Position numbers and translations under genes: made by a program | Part shown: piece after piece, positions 53,153 to 58,447 of the stretch | Numbering within the stretch: position 1 is the first letter of the stretch | Layout of the letters: every line of letters starts with the position of its first letter | NCBI GenBank assembly: GCA_001028815.1 | Contig: LDJB01000002.1 | Span: forward strand, 248,001 to 312,000 | Length of the DNA: 64,000 nucleotides | Direction: 5' to 3' | Origin: Peptococcaceae bacterium 1109 | GTDB lineage: Bacteria > Bacillota > Limnochordia > Darwinibacteriales > Darwinibacteriaceae | Notes under the pieces: generated by a model | Seen by the model: only the letters and a program-made list of their open reading frames with translations | The model's database searches: none | What the model was told of the DNA's origin: nothing

Positions 53153-53923
53153 TCAATCCACCGTTATGCGAAGGCCGTCAAAGGCCAGCTCTACCCCTGG
53201 AGGCAGACTCCGGTTTACCTCATCGTGGTCCAAAAGGTGCGAGAGGTGGGTAAAGAATGTCCGCTTAGGGCGGAGCCTTTCCACGAGCTTAAGGGCCTGC
53301 TCCACGTGCATATGGGTGGAGTGGGGCTCATACCGGACTACTCCGAGGATTAACACATCTAAGCCATCTAGAAGGGCCAAGGACTCCCGGGGCATGCGGC
53401 TGCAATCAGTGACATAGGCCATTTTGCCGATTCGGTAGCCAAAGATGGGCAGTTCGCCGTGGAAAACGGGGATGGGAGTGATCTCTACTCCTTGAAAGAC
53501 AAAGGGGCCGTCCACAGCAATGGTCTCCACTTGCGGCTTCCCACCCCCCTCTTGGGTTTTGCGAAAGGCGTAGGAAAACACGCTCCGTAGTTCCCCAATG
53601 GTGGGTTCGTTGCCATATACCGGCACCGGCTGCTGCTGCCTATAACCGAACACTCTGAGGTCATCAAAGCCAAAGACGTGATCCGCATGGCAGTGGGTAT
53701 ACAGCACCCCATCTACCCGCTCAATTTGGTTGGCCAGTGCTTGGAGGCGAAATTCGGTGGCTGTATCAATTAGGAGATGGACGCCCTGCTGCTTAAGAAA
53801 AATGGAACTGCGAGTCCGCTTGTTTTTTGGGTTGGGGCTGGTGCAGACACTGCACGGGCACCCGATCACGGGAATGCCGTGGGATGTGCCTGTTCCTAGA
53901 AAAGTAAGCTCCACTGTTCCCAT
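53153..53923 (-). CDS. MBL-fold metal-dependent hydrolase, PhnP-like
   Basis: 256-residue metallo-beta-lactamase-fold phosphodiesterase. ELTFLGTGTSHGIPVIGCPC and CTSPNPKNKRTRSSIFL match the PhnP/RNase Z-like subgroup, with Cys positions that bind a structural zinc. The metal motif THCHADHVFGFDDL is intact, with later His in VFHGELPIFGYR and LSHLLDHDEV. No phosphonate genes are nearby, so a cyclic nucleotide or nucleic-acid diester is as likely. The gene diverges from the SOS-type operon, its ATG 12 nt from the TTGACT element. Confidence 0.9.
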   Translation of the reverse strand: MGTVELTFLGTGTSHGIPVIGCPCSVCTSPNPKNKRTRSSIFLKQQGVHLLIDTATEFRLQALANQIERVDGVLYTHCHADHVFGFDDLRVFGYRQQQPVPVYGNEPTIGELRSVFSYAFRKTQEGGGKPQVETIAVDGPFVFQGVEITPIPVFHGELPIFGYRIGKMAYVTDCSRMPRESLALLDGLDVLILGVVRYEPHSTHMHVEQALKLVERLRPKRTFFTHLSHLLDHDEVNRSLPPGVELAFDGLRITVD

Positions 53924-53934
53924 CCTTTCCCAAC

Positions 53935-53983
53935 TTGACTAGAACATATGTTCTGCATATAATGGGTATAGAACATTTGTTCG
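53935..53983 (+). promoter_or_regulatory. LexA-regulated promoter with two SOS boxes
   Basis: TTGACT (53935-53940), a 17-bp spacer and TATAAT (53958-53963). Box 1, AGAACATATGTTCT (53941-53954), is a perfect palindrome inside the spacer. Box 2, AGAACATTTGTTCG (53970-53983), covers the expected start site. Both fit the Gram-positive LexA box, consensus close to CGAACATATGTTCG. The ATG of the ImuB-like gene is at 53999. Confidence 0.92.
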
Positions 53984-53998
53984 TAGAGGAGGCTCATT

Positions 53999-55138
53999 AT
54001 GATTGTGTACTGCGGTATCCGCCACTTTTACATCCAGCATTTTCAGGGGCAAGATGGCAGTCCCCAGCAGGATGAGCCTTTATATATCTTAACACATGCC
54101 GGCCAAACCTGGGACTTTTCCCCAGAACTTAAGCAGCTAGGGTTTTCCACGAAAACGCCTCTGAACACAATCCACCACTTGGGCCGGCCCGTGCAGGTGC
54201 AAGCCATTGACCTGGAAGATTTCTACCCCTACACAGAGGAATGGCTGGAATTCCCCAGGCAATACAGCTCAGAAATTGAGGTGGAATACCCCCATGCTTG
54301 GTATGTAAGGCTGCCCAGTGAAAAAATGGCCCAGTACTTCTGCGCCGACTTTGCCCACTACCTTGCCCAACGGGAAGCCTCTGCTATCTGGGGCGGGGGA
54401 GAAAGTAAAATCGTGGCCAAATTCGCCGCCCACAACCTTGCCCTGCACCAATCGGGGCAAATTGTCCCGCCAGGGAAAACTGAGGAGTTCTTAGCTAAAA
54501 TCCCCATCGGCCGCCTTCCCCTCCCGGAAGCAGATATCTTGGGAAAACTGGGCATTACCTCCTTGGGGGAGCTGGGTAAGTTCCCCCTGCAAGATCTCAT
54601 GGGCCATTTCGGCTCCCGGGCAGAGGTTTTGCTGGAAATCGCCCGGGGCAAAGACCCAGTCCCCTTTCAGCCCCAGCACAGGCTGGAGTTTAGCTGGAAC
54701 AAAGACTTTACCACTACGCCTGATTTGTATCAGGCTATCGCAGGCCCACTCTTCCAGCCCTATCTAGCTGAGGCAGGGAGATTTCTCGCCCAAAAGCTTC
54801 AGTCCGCTGGGAAAGTCGGGGGAAAACTGGTGCTGAGCTGGGGAGAGGAAGGCTGTCCTGAAGTTACCGCCCAGCGGAAGTTAAAAACTCCAACTGCTGA
54901 TGCTAAAACCTTGGTGCGGAACATGGCTCATCTCTTGCCACGAACCCCTATCACCCACCTTAAAGTCACAGTACAGGACCTTGAGCCCGCCCCAGCAGAC
55001 CAATTAGAGCTTTTCCAGGCCGCAGAAAAGAAAAGGGAGTTGCCGCAAACGCTCTTGCAAAAACTCCCTGCTCAAAAGGGCCTCACTGTTTCTCGGCGGG
55101 AACTGGTTTTAGAAATGTGGAGAGAACTGGTGTTGTAA
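53999..55138 (+). CDS. catalytically degenerate Y-family DNA polymerase-like protein (ImuB-like)
   Basis: 379 residues. The thumb-type helix-hairpin-helix (ADILGKLGITSLGELGKFP, then FGSRAEVLLEIARGKDPVPF) and the following little-finger region are Y-family. The N-terminal palm is altered: the DMDAFFASVE-like strand reads IVYCGIRHFYIQHF, and the SIDE motif region reads YPHAWYVRLPS, so the metal-binding carboxylates appear absent. A clamp-binding motif QLELF lies at 335-339 (consensus QLxLF). This is the ImuB pattern: a non-catalytic adaptor that brings DnaE2 to the sliding clamp. ATG 53999 lies 6 nt after AGAGGAGG. It is first in the SOS-type operon. Confidence 0.82.
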   Translation: MIVYCGIRHFYIQHFQGQDGSPQQDEPLYILTHAGQTWDFSPELKQLGFSTKTPLNTIHHLGRPVQVQAIDLEDFYPYTEEWLEFPRQYSSEIEVEYPHAWYVRLPSEKMAQYFCADFAHYLAQREASAIWGGGESKIVAKFAAHNLALHQSGQIVPPGKTEEFLAKIPIGRLPLPEADILGKLGITSLGELGKFPLQDLMGHFGSRAEVLLEIARGKDPVPFQPQHRLEFSWNKDFTTTPDLYQAIAGPLFQPYLAEAGRFLAQKLQSAGKVGGKLVLSWGEEGCPEVTAQRKLKTPTADAKTLVRNMAHLLPRTPITHLKVTVQDLEPAPADQLELFQAAEKKRELPQTLLQKLPAQKGLTVSRRELVLEMWRELVL

Positions 55139-55372
55139 ATGAGCAAGCTCGTGAATCAACCAGTGGAAGTTGTGCTGGAAAATGGTTTCCCTCGGCGGTT
55201 TTTCTTTCAAAAACCGTTTTTTATTCACCATGTCCAAGAGTGCTGGCATGAAGTGGGCGAATGGTGGCTGGGGGAGTCAGAGCGCATTATTTACCTGGTG
55301 GTGACCGATTACGGCTTGCATGAACTTCACTATATACCTCACGATGACTGCTGGCTGCTCTACCGGCTTTAA
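55139..55372 (+). CDS. small DUF6504-like protein of the mutasome cassette
   Basis: 77 residues. It begins MSKLVNQPVEVVLENGFPRR and has FFFQKPFFIHHVQECWHEVG, then EWWLGESERIIYLVVTDYG and a WLLYRL end. The order P-x-x-F-x-W/F...V...W...WW is what I recall for DUF6504 proteins encoded between imuB and dnaE2 in actinobacteria. The start ATG follows the previous TAA directly and has no good ribosome site, so translation is probably coupled. The function is unknown. A role in joining the two polymerase-like proteins is inference from position. Confidence 0.72.
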   Translation: MSKLVNQPVEVVLENGFPRRFFFQKPFFIHHVQECWHEVGEWWLGESERIIYLVVTDYGLHELHYIPHDDCWLLYRL

Positions 55373-55390
55373 GGCTAAGGAGGAATTGAG

Positions 55391-58300
55391 TTGTTTGTCC
55401 ACCTGCACGTCCACTCCCAATATTCCATGCTAGATGGGGCATCGTCAATTTCCGCTTATCTAGAGGAAGCGGCCCGCCTGGAGATGCCTGCCTTGGCCCT
55501 GACGGATCACAATAATGTGAGCGGAGCGGTGGAGTTCCATCAAACAGCGGTAAAGCTCGGCATCAAACCGATCCAAGGAGTAGAAATTACCACCACTGAC
55601 GGCACTCACCTCACTCTTCTCGCGGAAGACAACACGGGATACGCAAGTATCTGCCGCATCCTTACCGCGGGGCACACTCAAAATCCCCGGGGGAACTGCC
55701 AAATTTCCTGGGAAATCCTGGCAAACAATAGTAAAGGGCTAATTGTACTCAGCGGCTGCCGCCGTTCGGGGGTCAGCCAAGCTGTCCTGCGGCGTAATTT
55801 AGATCAAGCCAAGGCCGAACTCTACCGCCTCATCGAGATCTTCGGCAAGGATCAAGTCTATCTGGAAATGGTTCACTCGCACCTGCCCCAAACCAAGCAC
55901 CTCTTGGAGGGGTTGTTTGCCCTTCACGAAAGCATGCAAATCCCTCTTGTGGCCACAAATAACGTCCACTACCTAGATAAAGAGGCTTTTCCCGTACACG
56001 ATCTCTTGGTCTGCACTAGGACCCAAACCAAGCTCCATGATATCCACCCGGAGCGGCCCTTAAATGGGGAAAACTACTTTGCCTGCCCAAAGGAAATGGC
56101 CCGGCGGTTTGCCCCCTATCCCCAGGCACTGACAGCCACCTTAGAAATTGCCCAGCGGTGCACCCCAGCTTTGGAGCTGGGGAAAAACCACTTTCCCCGT
56201 TTCCTCCCAGGGCAAGGCCAGGAAGCCGCGGCGCAGCTTCTCACCGAGCTGACCTGGTCTGGGGCTAGAGAGCGCTACGGCAAGATCACTTCTGGCCTGC
56301 AGGAACGGATTGAACATGAGCTTAGGATTATTACCACCCTTGATGTGGCCGATTACTTCTTGGTGGTGTGGGATATCGTGCAGTATGCACATCAAAAGGG
56401 AATCCGCTGCGCAGGAAGGGGGTCCGCCGCAGACTCTGTTGTAGCTTACTGTTTGGGCATCACCAATGTGGACGCCTACGCGCGGGGGCTCCTCTTTGAG
56501 CGCTTTCTAAGCTTGGAGCGAGCCCAAAAACCTGATATTGACATCGACTTTGATGCCCGTTTCCGAGATGATATAGCAGATTACGTCTATCAGCGCTATG
56601 GCGAAGAGCATGTGGCTTCTGTTTGCATGTTCCAAACCTACCACGCCCGCTCTGCCCTGCGGGACTTCGGGCGGGCCTTTGGCTATTCTCAAGCAGAACT
56701 GTCGCAGCTCACCAAGAACATCACCCACTGCCACGCGGATGGGATCCGTTCCCTCCTTAAGCGCCTCCCAGAACTTAGGCGGCATCCGTTAAACCAGCCG
56801 AAATACGCTAAACTCCTAGATTACTGTGGGGCAGTGGCAGGCTTCCCCCGCCATATTGGCACCCACCTTGGTGGGTTGGTAATCAGTGCCCGGCCCCTCA
56901 CAGCGGTTACTCCTCTCCAACCCTCTGCTAAAGGGGTGCTCATCACCCAGTTCGATAAGAACACCATCGAAGATCTGGGGCTGATCAAGATCGACCTTCT
57001 CTCCCTCCGCACTTTAGCGGCGGTCTCTGATGTGGAGCAGATACTCAAGCCCAGGGGATTTTCCTATGATCGCATTCCCCACGATGATCCCCAAACTTAT
57101 GCCCGCCTCCGCACGGGGGAAACTGTAGGAGTGTTCCAGCTAGAAAGCCCTGCCCAGCGATCCCTCCAGTCCCGCCTAGGTTCGGAAGCCTTCGAAGATT
57201 TAGTGGCTAGTGTGGCCCTGATCCGCCCAGGCCCCATTAAGGGAGATATGGTGGAACCTTTTATTGCCCGGCGGCGGGGCTTGGAGGAAGTCACCTATAT
57301 CCACCCCAAACTGCGAAAAATCTTGGAAAAGACCTATGGCGTGGTTCTTTACCAAGAGCAAGTGATCGAAATCGCCACTGAAATTGCTGGGTTCACCCCA
57401 GGAGAGTCGGACCGCCTGCGGAAAGTAATGACTCGCTTCCGCTCTCACAAGGAAATGGAGAGCATCGGCGAAGAGTTTATCGCCAAGGCAGTGGCAAACG
57501 GCGTAGAACGGGAAGTTGCAGAGGTTATCTTCTCCTACATCGTAGGCTATGCGGGCTATGGCTTCTGTGAGGCCCATGCAGCTGCTTTTGCAGATACAGC
57601 CTACCGCACAGCATATCTTTTAGAACACCACCCCGCTCAATTCTACGCGGCCCTTCTCAATCAGCAGCCCATGGGGTTTTACCCCCCCAACACGCTCTGC
57701 GTCCAAGCTAGGCAGCGAGGGATTAAGATTCTACCCCTGGATATCAACTGCAGTGAAGTGGATTATACCGCGGACGAACACACCATCCGCATCGGCCTCA
57801 AACAGGTGAAAGGGATGGAACAGGGGTTTTTAGAGTCTATCACCGGGGAACGCCGCAAGGCAAAGTTTACTTCGCTGGAAGACTTTATTTACCGCACCAA
57901 CGTAAGCCGGGACGTTGCAGAGAACCTGATCCTCGGGGGAGCCTTTGACTGGTTTTCCACCAACCGCCGCCAGCTGCTGTGGTGCGTCCCTACGTATTAC
58001 CAAAACAAACAGGGGAGCCTCTTCATGGAATCCCCTGTTCAAGTTCAAGTTCCAGATTTTCCCCCGTTAGAGCGCTGGCTGCGGGAGTACAGCGTGCTCT
58101 CTCTGTCCGCGGACCGCCATGTAATGGAGTTTTTCCGCCCCAAACTCCCAAAGGCGGTTTTGAGCAGCCGCGCAGTGAGCCAGCGGAAACAGGGCCCGGT
58201 ACAAGTTGCTGGGCTGGTCATTCGCCCTCACCGGCCCCCAACCAGAAGCGGAAAAACCGTTGTATTCCTCACCTTGGAGGATGAGTTCGGCTTAGTGGAT

Positions 58301-58447
58301 GTGACCATCTTTGAAAACACATATAAGCGGTACGGCGAGGTGCTGTTTAACTCTCCCCTTTTAGTGATCACAGGGGAGATATCTGAGCGGGATCCGAACC
58401 AAATCACCACCGTGGTCGCTAACCGCATCACTTCTCTTGTATCTTAA
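55391..58447 (+). CDS. dnaE2: error-prone DNA polymerase III alpha-like subunit (DnaE2 type)
   Basis: 1018-residue C-family polymerase for translesion synthesis. It has an N-terminal PHP domain (FVHLHVHSQYSMLDGAS, ALTDHNNVSGAVEF) with its metal-binding His largely intact. Palm aspartates lie in PDIDIDFD at 382 and 384 and in IKIDLLSLRTL at 535. GRGSAADSVVAYCLGIT and ADTAYRTAYLLEHHP follow, and an OB fold ends the protein (VDVTIFENTYKRY). It lacks the C-terminal tau-binding part of replicative DnaE, in line with a DnaE2/ImuC role. TTG start, 7 nt after AGGAGG. Third gene of the SOS operon; the TAA overlaps the ypeB stop. Confidence 0.9.
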   Translation: MFVHLHVHSQYSMLDGASSISAYLEEAARLEMPALALTDHNNVSGAVEFHQTAVKLGIKPIQGVEITTTDGTHLTLLAEDNTGYASICRILTAGHTQNPRGNCQISWEILANNSKGLIVLSGCRRSGVSQAVLRRNLDQAKAELYRLIEIFGKDQVYLEMVHSHLPQTKHLLEGLFALHESMQIPLVATNNVHYLDKEAFPVHDLLVCTRTQTKLHDIHPERPLNGENYFACPKEMARRFAPYPQALTATLEIAQRCTPALELGKNHFPRFLPGQGQEAAAQLLTELTWSGARERYGKITSGLQERIEHELRIITTLDVADYFLVVWDIVQYAHQKGIRCAGRGSAADSVVAYCLGITNVDAYARGLLFERFLSLERAQKPDIDIDFDARFRDDIADYVYQRYGEEHVASVCMFQTYHARSALRDFGRAFGYSQAELSQLTKNITHCHADGIRSLLKRLPELRRHPLNQPKYAKLLDYCGAVAGFPRHIGTHLGGLVISARPLTAVTPLQPSAKGVLITQFDKNTIEDLGLIKIDLLSLRTLAAVSDVEQILKPRGFSYDRIPHDDPQTYARLRTGETVGVFQLESPAQRSLQSRLGSEAFEDLVASVALIRPGPIKGDMVEPFIARRRGLEEVTYIHPKLRKILEKTYGVVLYQEQVIEIATEIAGFTPGESDRLRKVMTRFRSHKEMESIGEEFIAKAVANGVEREVAEVIFSYIVGYAGYGFCEAHAAAFADTAYRTAYLLEHHPAQFYAALLNQQPMGFYPPNTLCVQARQRGIKILPLDINCSEVDYTADEHTIRIGLKQVKGMEQGFLESITGERRKAKFTSLEDFIYRTNVSRDVAENLILGGAFDWFSTNRRQLLWCVPTYYQNKQGSLFMESPVQVQVPDFPPLERWLREYSVLSLSADRHVMEFFRPKLPKAVLSSRAVSQRKQGPVQVAGLVIRPHRPPTRSGKTVVFLTLEDEFGLVDVTIFENTYKRYGEVLFNSPLLVITGEISERDPNQITTVVANRITSLVS

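Follow-up and report, generated by a model that had tools for sequence, protein, structure and literature searches.

The ImuA-ImuB-DnaE2 (ImuABC) mutasome of Proteobacteria and Actinobacteria combines a catalytically dead Y-family polymerase, which carries a clamp motif and an ImuB-C domain, with ImuA, DnaE2 and SOS-type control. Variants without ImuA have been described as well. A Kyrpidia-type mutasome of this kind was predicted in 2019 (PMC6511836), with the standalone ImuB-C protein reported in PMC3765255 and PMC6511836; in 2026, Timinskas et al. predicted a DnaE2X-iPolY-ImuB-C-RecA assembly, in which RecA replaces ImuA via a RecA-NT motif located behind the clamp motif of the polymerase (PMC12926913); and for the imuY-imuB-C-dnaE2 cassette of Deinococcus, there is genetic evidence, with RecA-dependent induction and loss of UV mutagenesis in the absence of ImuY, DnaE2 or RecA (PMC8072749). 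The Deinococcus genetics does not separate RecA as the inducer from RecA as a subunit. Here we describe a three-gene operon at positions 53999-58447 (plus strand) of a 64,000-nt stretch of the genome of Peptococcaceae bacterium 1109 (GCA_001028815.1, contig LDJB01000002.1:248,001-312,000; hereinafter the window, all positions being window coordinates). Judging from the sequences, this operon is very probably a LexA-controlled translesion mutagenesis cassette of the iPolY/ImuB-C/DnaE2 type (ImuY-ImuB-C-DnaE2; DnaE2X-iPolY-ImuB-C-RecA). The preliminary description, which was made from the window alone, proposed an SOS-type, ImuA-less DnaE2 mutasome; this idea holds, given the lack of a profile match to ImuA, the non-replicative clade of the polymerase and the conserved LexA boxes, but it is not new (PMC6511836, PMC12926913, PMC8072749). 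The cassette type is already published, and what is new is the apparent erosion of RecA-NT, the recurrent Asp-to-Asn replacement in the PHP domain and the frequency of DnaE2X in the phylum.

The closest counterparts are the Kyrpidia tusciae-type and DnaE2X-iPolY-ImuBC-RecA cassettes, which, like the window, encode an inactive Y-family polymerase, a standalone ImuB-C and DnaE2 in one operon, with ImuB-C here lying between the other two genes and no imuA found in the operon or elsewhere in the genome. The published assembly includes RecA via the RecA-NT of iPolY, whereas no such motif is detectable in the C-terminal tails (C-tails) of the polymerases from the window's family, where per-sequence tests have weak power. 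With the Deinococcus cassette, the operon shares the gene order PolY, ImuB-C (80 aa in Deinococcus), DnaE2, the LexA boxes and the absence of ImuA; unlike in Deinococcus, lexA is absent from the operon, the DnaE2 lineages do not group together (approximately unbiased test, p-AU 0.004), and the PHP site, strongly degenerate in Deinococcus, is nearly intact. The dead polymerase, the ImuB-C domain, DnaE2 and the SOS-type control are all common to the operon and the ImuABC mutasome, but the window and the rest of its genome yielded no ImuA, ImuB is split in two proteins, and the DnaE2 falls outside the ImuAB-linked clade (SH-like approximate likelihood ratio test, SH-aLRT, 99).

The operon and its LexA boxes

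The three open reading frames (ORFs) are all uninterrupted and follow a single sigma-A type promoter with intergenic gaps of 0 nt (iPolY/ImuB-C) and 18 nt (ImuB-C/polymerase), as already read in the preliminary description (Table 1). The order of the trio is conserved in 23 of the 23 named-contig loci of sufficient length (L084, a 33-residue fragment, was excluded, and L061, L072, L075 and L083 are too short at the ends). The ratios of nonsynonymous to synonymous substitution rates (dN/dS) relative to the nearest relative are 0.13, 0.09 and 0.05 for the three genes, all of which are under purifying selection. In most relatives from the same family (loci L059-L079), the start of ImuB-C and the stop codon of iPolY overlap, an arrangement suggestive of translational coupling; in the window, as in the two relatives nearest to it, the two genes exactly abut.

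Table 1. Features of the probable mutagenesis cassette in the window
Feature	Positions	Strand	Basis
Sigma-A type promoter: TTGACT 53935-53940, 17-nt spacer, TATAAT 53958-53963	53935..53963	+	sequence reading
LexA box 1, GAACATATGTTC, between -35 and -10	53942..53953		GAACN4GTTC match
LexA box 2, GAACATTTGTTC, near the expected transcription start	53971..53982		GAACN4GTTC match
iPolY (ImuY/ImuB-like), predicted catalytically dead Y-family polymerase, 379 aa	53999..55138	+	Pfam, alignment, model
Standalone ImuB-C (DUF6504), 77 aa, predicted all-beta except for one short helix turn	55139..55372	+	profiles, model
DnaE2-type (DnaE2X-like) C-family polymerase, 1018 aa, TTG start	55391..58447	+	profiles, trees, alignment

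The boxes GAACATATGTTC and GAACATTTGTTC are the sole matches in the window to GAACN4GTTC, the usual Gram-positive LexA box. Their number alone is within chance, with at least two boxes found in 12 of 100 shuffles of the window, and there is no genome-wide enrichment of the pattern (44 matches versus 72 for a reversed control), so that box counts by themselves were rejected as evidence of SOS control. The evidence lies in the conserved placement of the boxes. The TTGAC element was found in 28 of the 29 loci inspected (window included), and among these 28 loci, 25 have at least one strict box and 21 have two. In the window's family, both strict boxes are present in 20 of 21 loci (window included; a 22nd locus, whose sequence begins inside the gene, was not counted), with box 1 always 7 nt and box 2 35-39 nt into the TTGAC element, in accord with the LexA-boxed promoter originally proposed. 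Operators of the same type are present at the lexA and recA genes of this genome: lexA (PF01726) has three one-mismatch boxes in the ~145 nt ahead of its likely start, and recA has GAACACATGTTT, one base off the strict pattern, 22 nt ahead of its start, which is consistent with the cassette belonging to the SOS regulon. A gene recognised by eye as uvrB carries GAACGCATGTTC ~60 nt upstream, and the remaining strict boxes inspected are located inside or beside genes without an evident SOS link.

The encoded proteins

The first gene product matches the Pfam domain IMS_C above the cut-off and IMS below the cut-off, and the alignment of its family matches ImuB proteins with an hhalign E-value of 9.4e-22. 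Its structure model (predicted local distance difference test, pLDDT, 84.3; predicted template modelling score, pTM, 0.65) has the Y-family fold, with Rev1 as the best match in the Protein Data Bank (PDB; Foldseek E 4e-21). In the alignment, G, R, H and A occupy the positions where the active PolY of the same genome has D, D, D and E, and neither catalytic aspartate is kept in any row with letters at these positions among the window protein, 14 family- or order-level homologs and 31 other Bacillota cassette PolYs; the glutamate is retained in some of the aligned rows, and some have no N-terminal stretch. The clamp motif, QLELF (residues 335-339), is conserved, and an RRE motif follows at residues 366-368 (positions 55094-55102). 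As shown by the alignment and the predicted structure, iPolY has lost the catalytic acidic residues yet retains the fold and the clamp-binding motif, in line with the degenerate Y-family polymerase recognised earlier. Of the genomes sampled, all 21 from the same genus or family and 13 of the 14 from the same order encode this protein, and matches at the class level are weak. As for the RRE motif, in most of the ImuB-C-linked Bacillota PolYs that were read, it lies at the end of the protein, directly after the RecA-NT region; many other Bacillota families have ...DP.R following it, and by eye it may correspond to the PER motif ahead of ImuB-C in the fused ImuB.

The preliminary description called the second gene product DUF6504-like, and the profile search agrees at 14.1 bits, which is below the PF20114 cut-off of 24.2; PF20114 alone misses this ImuB-C copy. 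However, all 24 of the 24 family members match the DUF6504 model at E ≤ 0.1 (best 1.2e-6), and the same model recognises the 80-aa ImuB-C of Deinococcus deserti above the cut-off. In a profile comparison, the protein aligns with the C-terminal part of ImuB (E 5.2e-4, probability 31). Its predicted structure (pLDDT 91.9) consists almost wholly of beta strands and has no match in the PDB at E ≤ 0.001; PMC12926913 likewise reports no closely related PDB structure for ImuB-C. By its DUF6504 and ImuB C-terminus profile matches, the 77-aa protein is identified as the detached form of a domain that makes up the C-terminus of canonical ImuB, and the suggestion that this small protein stands in for ImuA was accordingly abandoned. 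DUF6504 genes also occur on plasmids of Thermaerobacter (L127:4914-5165) and Alicyclobacillus (L128:5001-5246), the latter beside a restriction endonuclease, with no polymerase gene annotated in either stretch shown.

Among the NCBIfam models, the third gene product scores highest on ‘error-prone DNA polymerase' (900 bits, just under the cut-off of 939), replicative alpha models score lower (868 and 835 bits), and all palm aspartates are intact. In an unrooted 42-row tree, nine replicative DnaE1 rows are on one side with support of 100/100 and the window polymerase lies outside. In a 52-row tree, also unrooted, seven ImuA/ImuB-linked DnaE2 form a clade (SH-aLRT 99) that excludes the window polymerase, which belongs to a Bacillota clade of 27 rows (99). 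The first tree that was built contained long-branch rows; the 52-row tree omits Persicobacter, a Streptomyces plasmid DnaE, the broken DnaE of the same genome, four family rows and a Caulobacter row, the 42-row tree additionally omits Rubrobacter and nine others, and Bacilli-type DnaE3 are not knowingly included in any of the trees. Within this sampling, the window polymerase does not group with DnaE1. Constraining the Bacillota DnaE2X core with DnaE1 is also rejected (p-AU 0.0175), a result on which we place no interpretation. The model match and the position outside DnaE1 agree with the initial assignment to the DnaE2 type.

The PHP site of such polymerases has nine metal ligands, HHDHEH[C/H]DH (PMC12926913), of which the window polymerase keeps eight, with Asn191 in place of an Asp. 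The same position was read in 61 Bacillota DnaE2X rows, one of them from the window: 53 have Asn, 5 Asp, 2 Ala and 1 Pro, and each of the other positions checked is kept in 57 to 61 of these rows (one row being truncated); nine of 10 replicative DnaE1 have Asp here. Among the seven ImuAB-linked DnaE2, the PHP site is degenerate at many positions in four and at a few in Streptomyces cellulosae, and it is nearly intact in two, Thermomicrobium roseum, with Asn at the equivalent of Asn191, and Kitasatospora, with Ala; a mostly intact site in a subgroup of actinobacterial DnaE2 is mentioned in PMC3919608. In the DnaE2 of two Deinococcus and of the Abditibacteriota representative, the site is strongly degenerate. 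Asn191 aligns with residue 226 (counted on the printed alignment) of PDB 7pu7, which we take to be Mycobacterium tuberculosis DnaE1. In mycobacterial DnaE1, the D226N mutant has no exonuclease activity and retains zinc binding (PMC5636811), and by analogy, we infer that Asn191 disables proofreading in the window DnaE2. The Thermus aquaticus DnaE structure 3e0d has Asn at the same position, and 2hpi has Asp. The parts of PMC12926913 and PMC3919608 that were consulted, and a literature listing, yielded no mention of a recurrent natural Asn at this position. A nearly intact PHP site with one recurrent Asp-to-Asn replacement suggests a simple route from a proofreading to an error-prone polymerase. 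Five DnaE2X keep the Asp, namely L137 and L139 (same order), L183, L184 and L182; the first four have the whole PHP motif, so that their PHP exonuclease might still work, and L182 lacks another ligand.

Possible RecA docking and competing explanations

In the proposed mechanism, DNA damage would yield RecA* that triggers LexA self-cleavage and thereby frees the doubly blocked promoter. DnaE2, with its intact palm aspartates, would then perform the synthesis, and misinsertions would stay in place because its PHP domain bears Asn at the position of DnaE1 D226. Since iPolY keeps the fold and the clamp-binding motif and has lost catalysis, it would, by analogy with ImuB, tether DnaE2 to the sliding clamp, and ImuB-C may bridge iPolY and the PHP domain of DnaE2, as in the AlphaFold model published for the mycobacterial complex, where ImuB-C is placed against the DnaE2 PHP domain.

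A search of the window's genome with a 6-sequence ImuA profile, as the preliminary description had suggested, finds only RecA itself and an insignificant fragment (E 0.09), and a RecA family search finds RecA and weaker matches, one of them RadA-like by eye. The published model, in which RecA is bound to iPolY as an activating fourth subunit (PMC12926913), is a plausible reading of the window's cassette that falls somewhat short of probable. The RecA-NT motif on which it depends is essential for ImuB-ImuA binding in mycobacteria (PMC11791113). When C-tails of cassette PolYs were compared with RecA N-termini (a usable N-terminus was available from 25 of 30 RecA loci), 26 of the 31 other Bacillota cassette tails were used and matched in the correct register over 24 columns (hhalign E 1.6e-4, probability 50). 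At the order level, 11 tails gave a match only in the wrong segment (E 0.03), and in the 18 C-tails of the window's family, RecA-NT is undetected (E 0.49). The stretch between the clamp motif and RRE is also ~13 residues shorter in the family, with a median of 29 residues (18 of 18 rows), compared with 42 residues in the other cassettes (18 of 31 measurable, two of them at 25 and 26); two outlying rows, one of the family at 63 and one of the order at 64, probably reflect a misplaced start point. Within the order, L079 has retained a clear RecA-NT match (p 0.002, ungapped test), which suggests that the erosion was stepwise and counts in favour of RecA docking, as does the failure to find ImuA in the genome.

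The tests of individual sequences are weak. Tails that score above the 95% shuffle level number 0 of 18 in the family, 2 of 11 in the order, 5 of 31 among the others and 1 of 12 among the controls, and both the cassette-tail hidden Markov model and the ungapped test detect the motif in some positive controls only, most of these controls failing as well. Because per-sequence scores are low everywhere, a diverged, still working RecA-NT in the family is possible. On the available sequences, RecA-NT seems to have been eroded, or perhaps lost, in the window's family, and because the docking motif is both shortened and undetected there, the notion that RecA replaces ImuA is at its weakest in this very family. 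The original proposal that RecA itself takes over from ImuA agrees with a published prediction, but the docking motif behind that prediction goes undetected in this family.

A far-reaching proposition combines two claims, and in combination they appear rather unlikely: that the mutasome of this family works without any RecA-fold subunit, with RecA only cleaving LexA and iPolY, free ImuB-C and DnaE2 being sufficient (as the 18 C-tails might indicate), and that DnaE2 arose from a proofreading replicase when the PHP Asp equivalent to D226 gave way to another residue (to Asn in Bacillota DnaE2X and in Thermomicrobium, and to Ala in two DnaE2 of actinobacteria), a founding step preserved almost alone in the Bacillota lineage. 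At stake is whether DnaE2 mutasomes need ImuA or RecA as a subunit or only as the switch that induces them, and a lineage in which the iPolY/ImuB-C/DnaE2 trio is under strong selection, with no RecA-docking motif detected, offers a natural test of this question.

Two other explanations were weighed. An auxiliary or alternative replicative DnaE, not mutagenic, as the third gene product would fit the ~38-42% identity to DnaE1 of the phylum (up to 707 bits) and the retention of eight of the nine PHP ligands. This is very improbable, given the separation from DnaE1 at 100/100, the LexA boxes of the operon, which also encodes an inactive PolY and ImuB-C, the presence of PolC and another DnaE in the genome (the latter broken over two frames), the Asn at the PHP Asp position in 53 of the 61 DnaE2X rows and the best match to an error-prone polymerase model; the trees and the PHP comparison led to its rejection. 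That the operon is decaying, a relic in which a dead Y-polymerase sits beside a leftover polymerase, might be surmised from an iPolY devoid of catalytic residues and of a detectable RecA-NT, but is hardly credible in the face of the low dN/dS of all three genes, on which it was rejected, the near-universal retention of iPolY in the family and order, and the conserved promoter and operators.

The interpretation of the operon as a LexA-controlled iPolY/ImuB-C/DnaE2 cassette has several points weighing against it besides the undetected RecA-NT. An imuA gene could have been missed because the genome is 96.75% complete. The ImuB-C assignment is built of weak single-sequence scores and family-level matches, and of the two canonical ImuBs scanned, that of Agrobacterium matches DUF6504 at its C-terminus below the cut-off and that of Kitasatospora shows no match. 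A clade with the ImuB-C-linked DnaE2 of Deinococcus and Abditibacteriota is rejected (p-AU 0.004, with long branches there). Finally, the organism is uncultured, its genome is a draft assembly and its kin are metagenome-assembled genomes, the named relatives being metagenome-assembled ‘Bacillota bacterium', ‘Firmicutes bacterium', ‘Clostridiales bacterium', ‘Natronincola sp.' and ‘Limnochordia bacterium', along with one uncultured Clostridia record.

Distribution in the phylum and neighbouring genes

ImuB-C is present in 80 of 299 genomes of the phylum, and DnaE2X-like polymerases in about 92 of 398 sampled genomes, with carriers set by a score gap (752 versus 707 bits) and two candidates scored per genome; four of these polymerases (families f33 and f70) branch beside DnaE1. 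The two genes strongly co-occur: 69 of the 80 ImuB-C-positive genomes also have DnaE2X (Fisher p ~2e-47; this count and those for PolC come from hand-copied genome lists, with the draws treated as nested). Among 29 short ImuB-C loci examined, DnaE2 adjoins in 24 and a PolY-like frame is found in 22. The 11 ImuB-C-positive genomes with no DnaE2X by score are G066, G068, G091, G112, G137, G150, G183, G212, G214, G262 and G277; some of these may pair ImuB-C with an active PolY.

PolC scores above the curated cut-off in 29 of 41 DnaE2X carriers versus 82 of 108 non-carriers (149-genome draw), which gives no sign of avoidance. Previously, PolC and DnaE2 were found together in 6 of 945 genomes, along with 13 PolC genomes with unassigned DnaEX, and the combination was called extremely rare (PMC3919608); according to PMC12926913, DnaE2 occurs almost exclusively with DnaE1 alone, and the ImuB-C/iPolY cassette type with all three replication systems. 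The frequency of DnaE2X in the phylum revises the published view of DnaE2 in PolC genomes as an extreme rarity, and the gap to the published frequency may stem from the use of complete genomes in those surveys.

The replicative DnaE of the genome itself is split between two reading frames of the minus strand, 563 and 495 aa long, that overlap (L085, G000:C1:769000-776500), through an assembly error or a real frameshift. The PolC of this genome, of just 1144 aa, has a PHP domain free of interruption and no match to an exonuclease domain (L086:2207-5638, minus strand, G000:C1). Across the phylum, TIGR01405 matches form two classes that differ in length and in the range matched, and PolC without an internal exonuclease is reported at 16% in PMC3919608.

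Divergently from the operon, a beta-lactamase-fold gene starts at 53923, so that the two share a 75-nt intergenic region. On the other side, a convergent gene with YpeB domains overlaps the polymerase ORF by 4 nt and is followed by a cell-wall hydrolase, presumably SleB-like; these two genes support the attribution of the window to a spore-forming Firmicute, as surmised at the outset.

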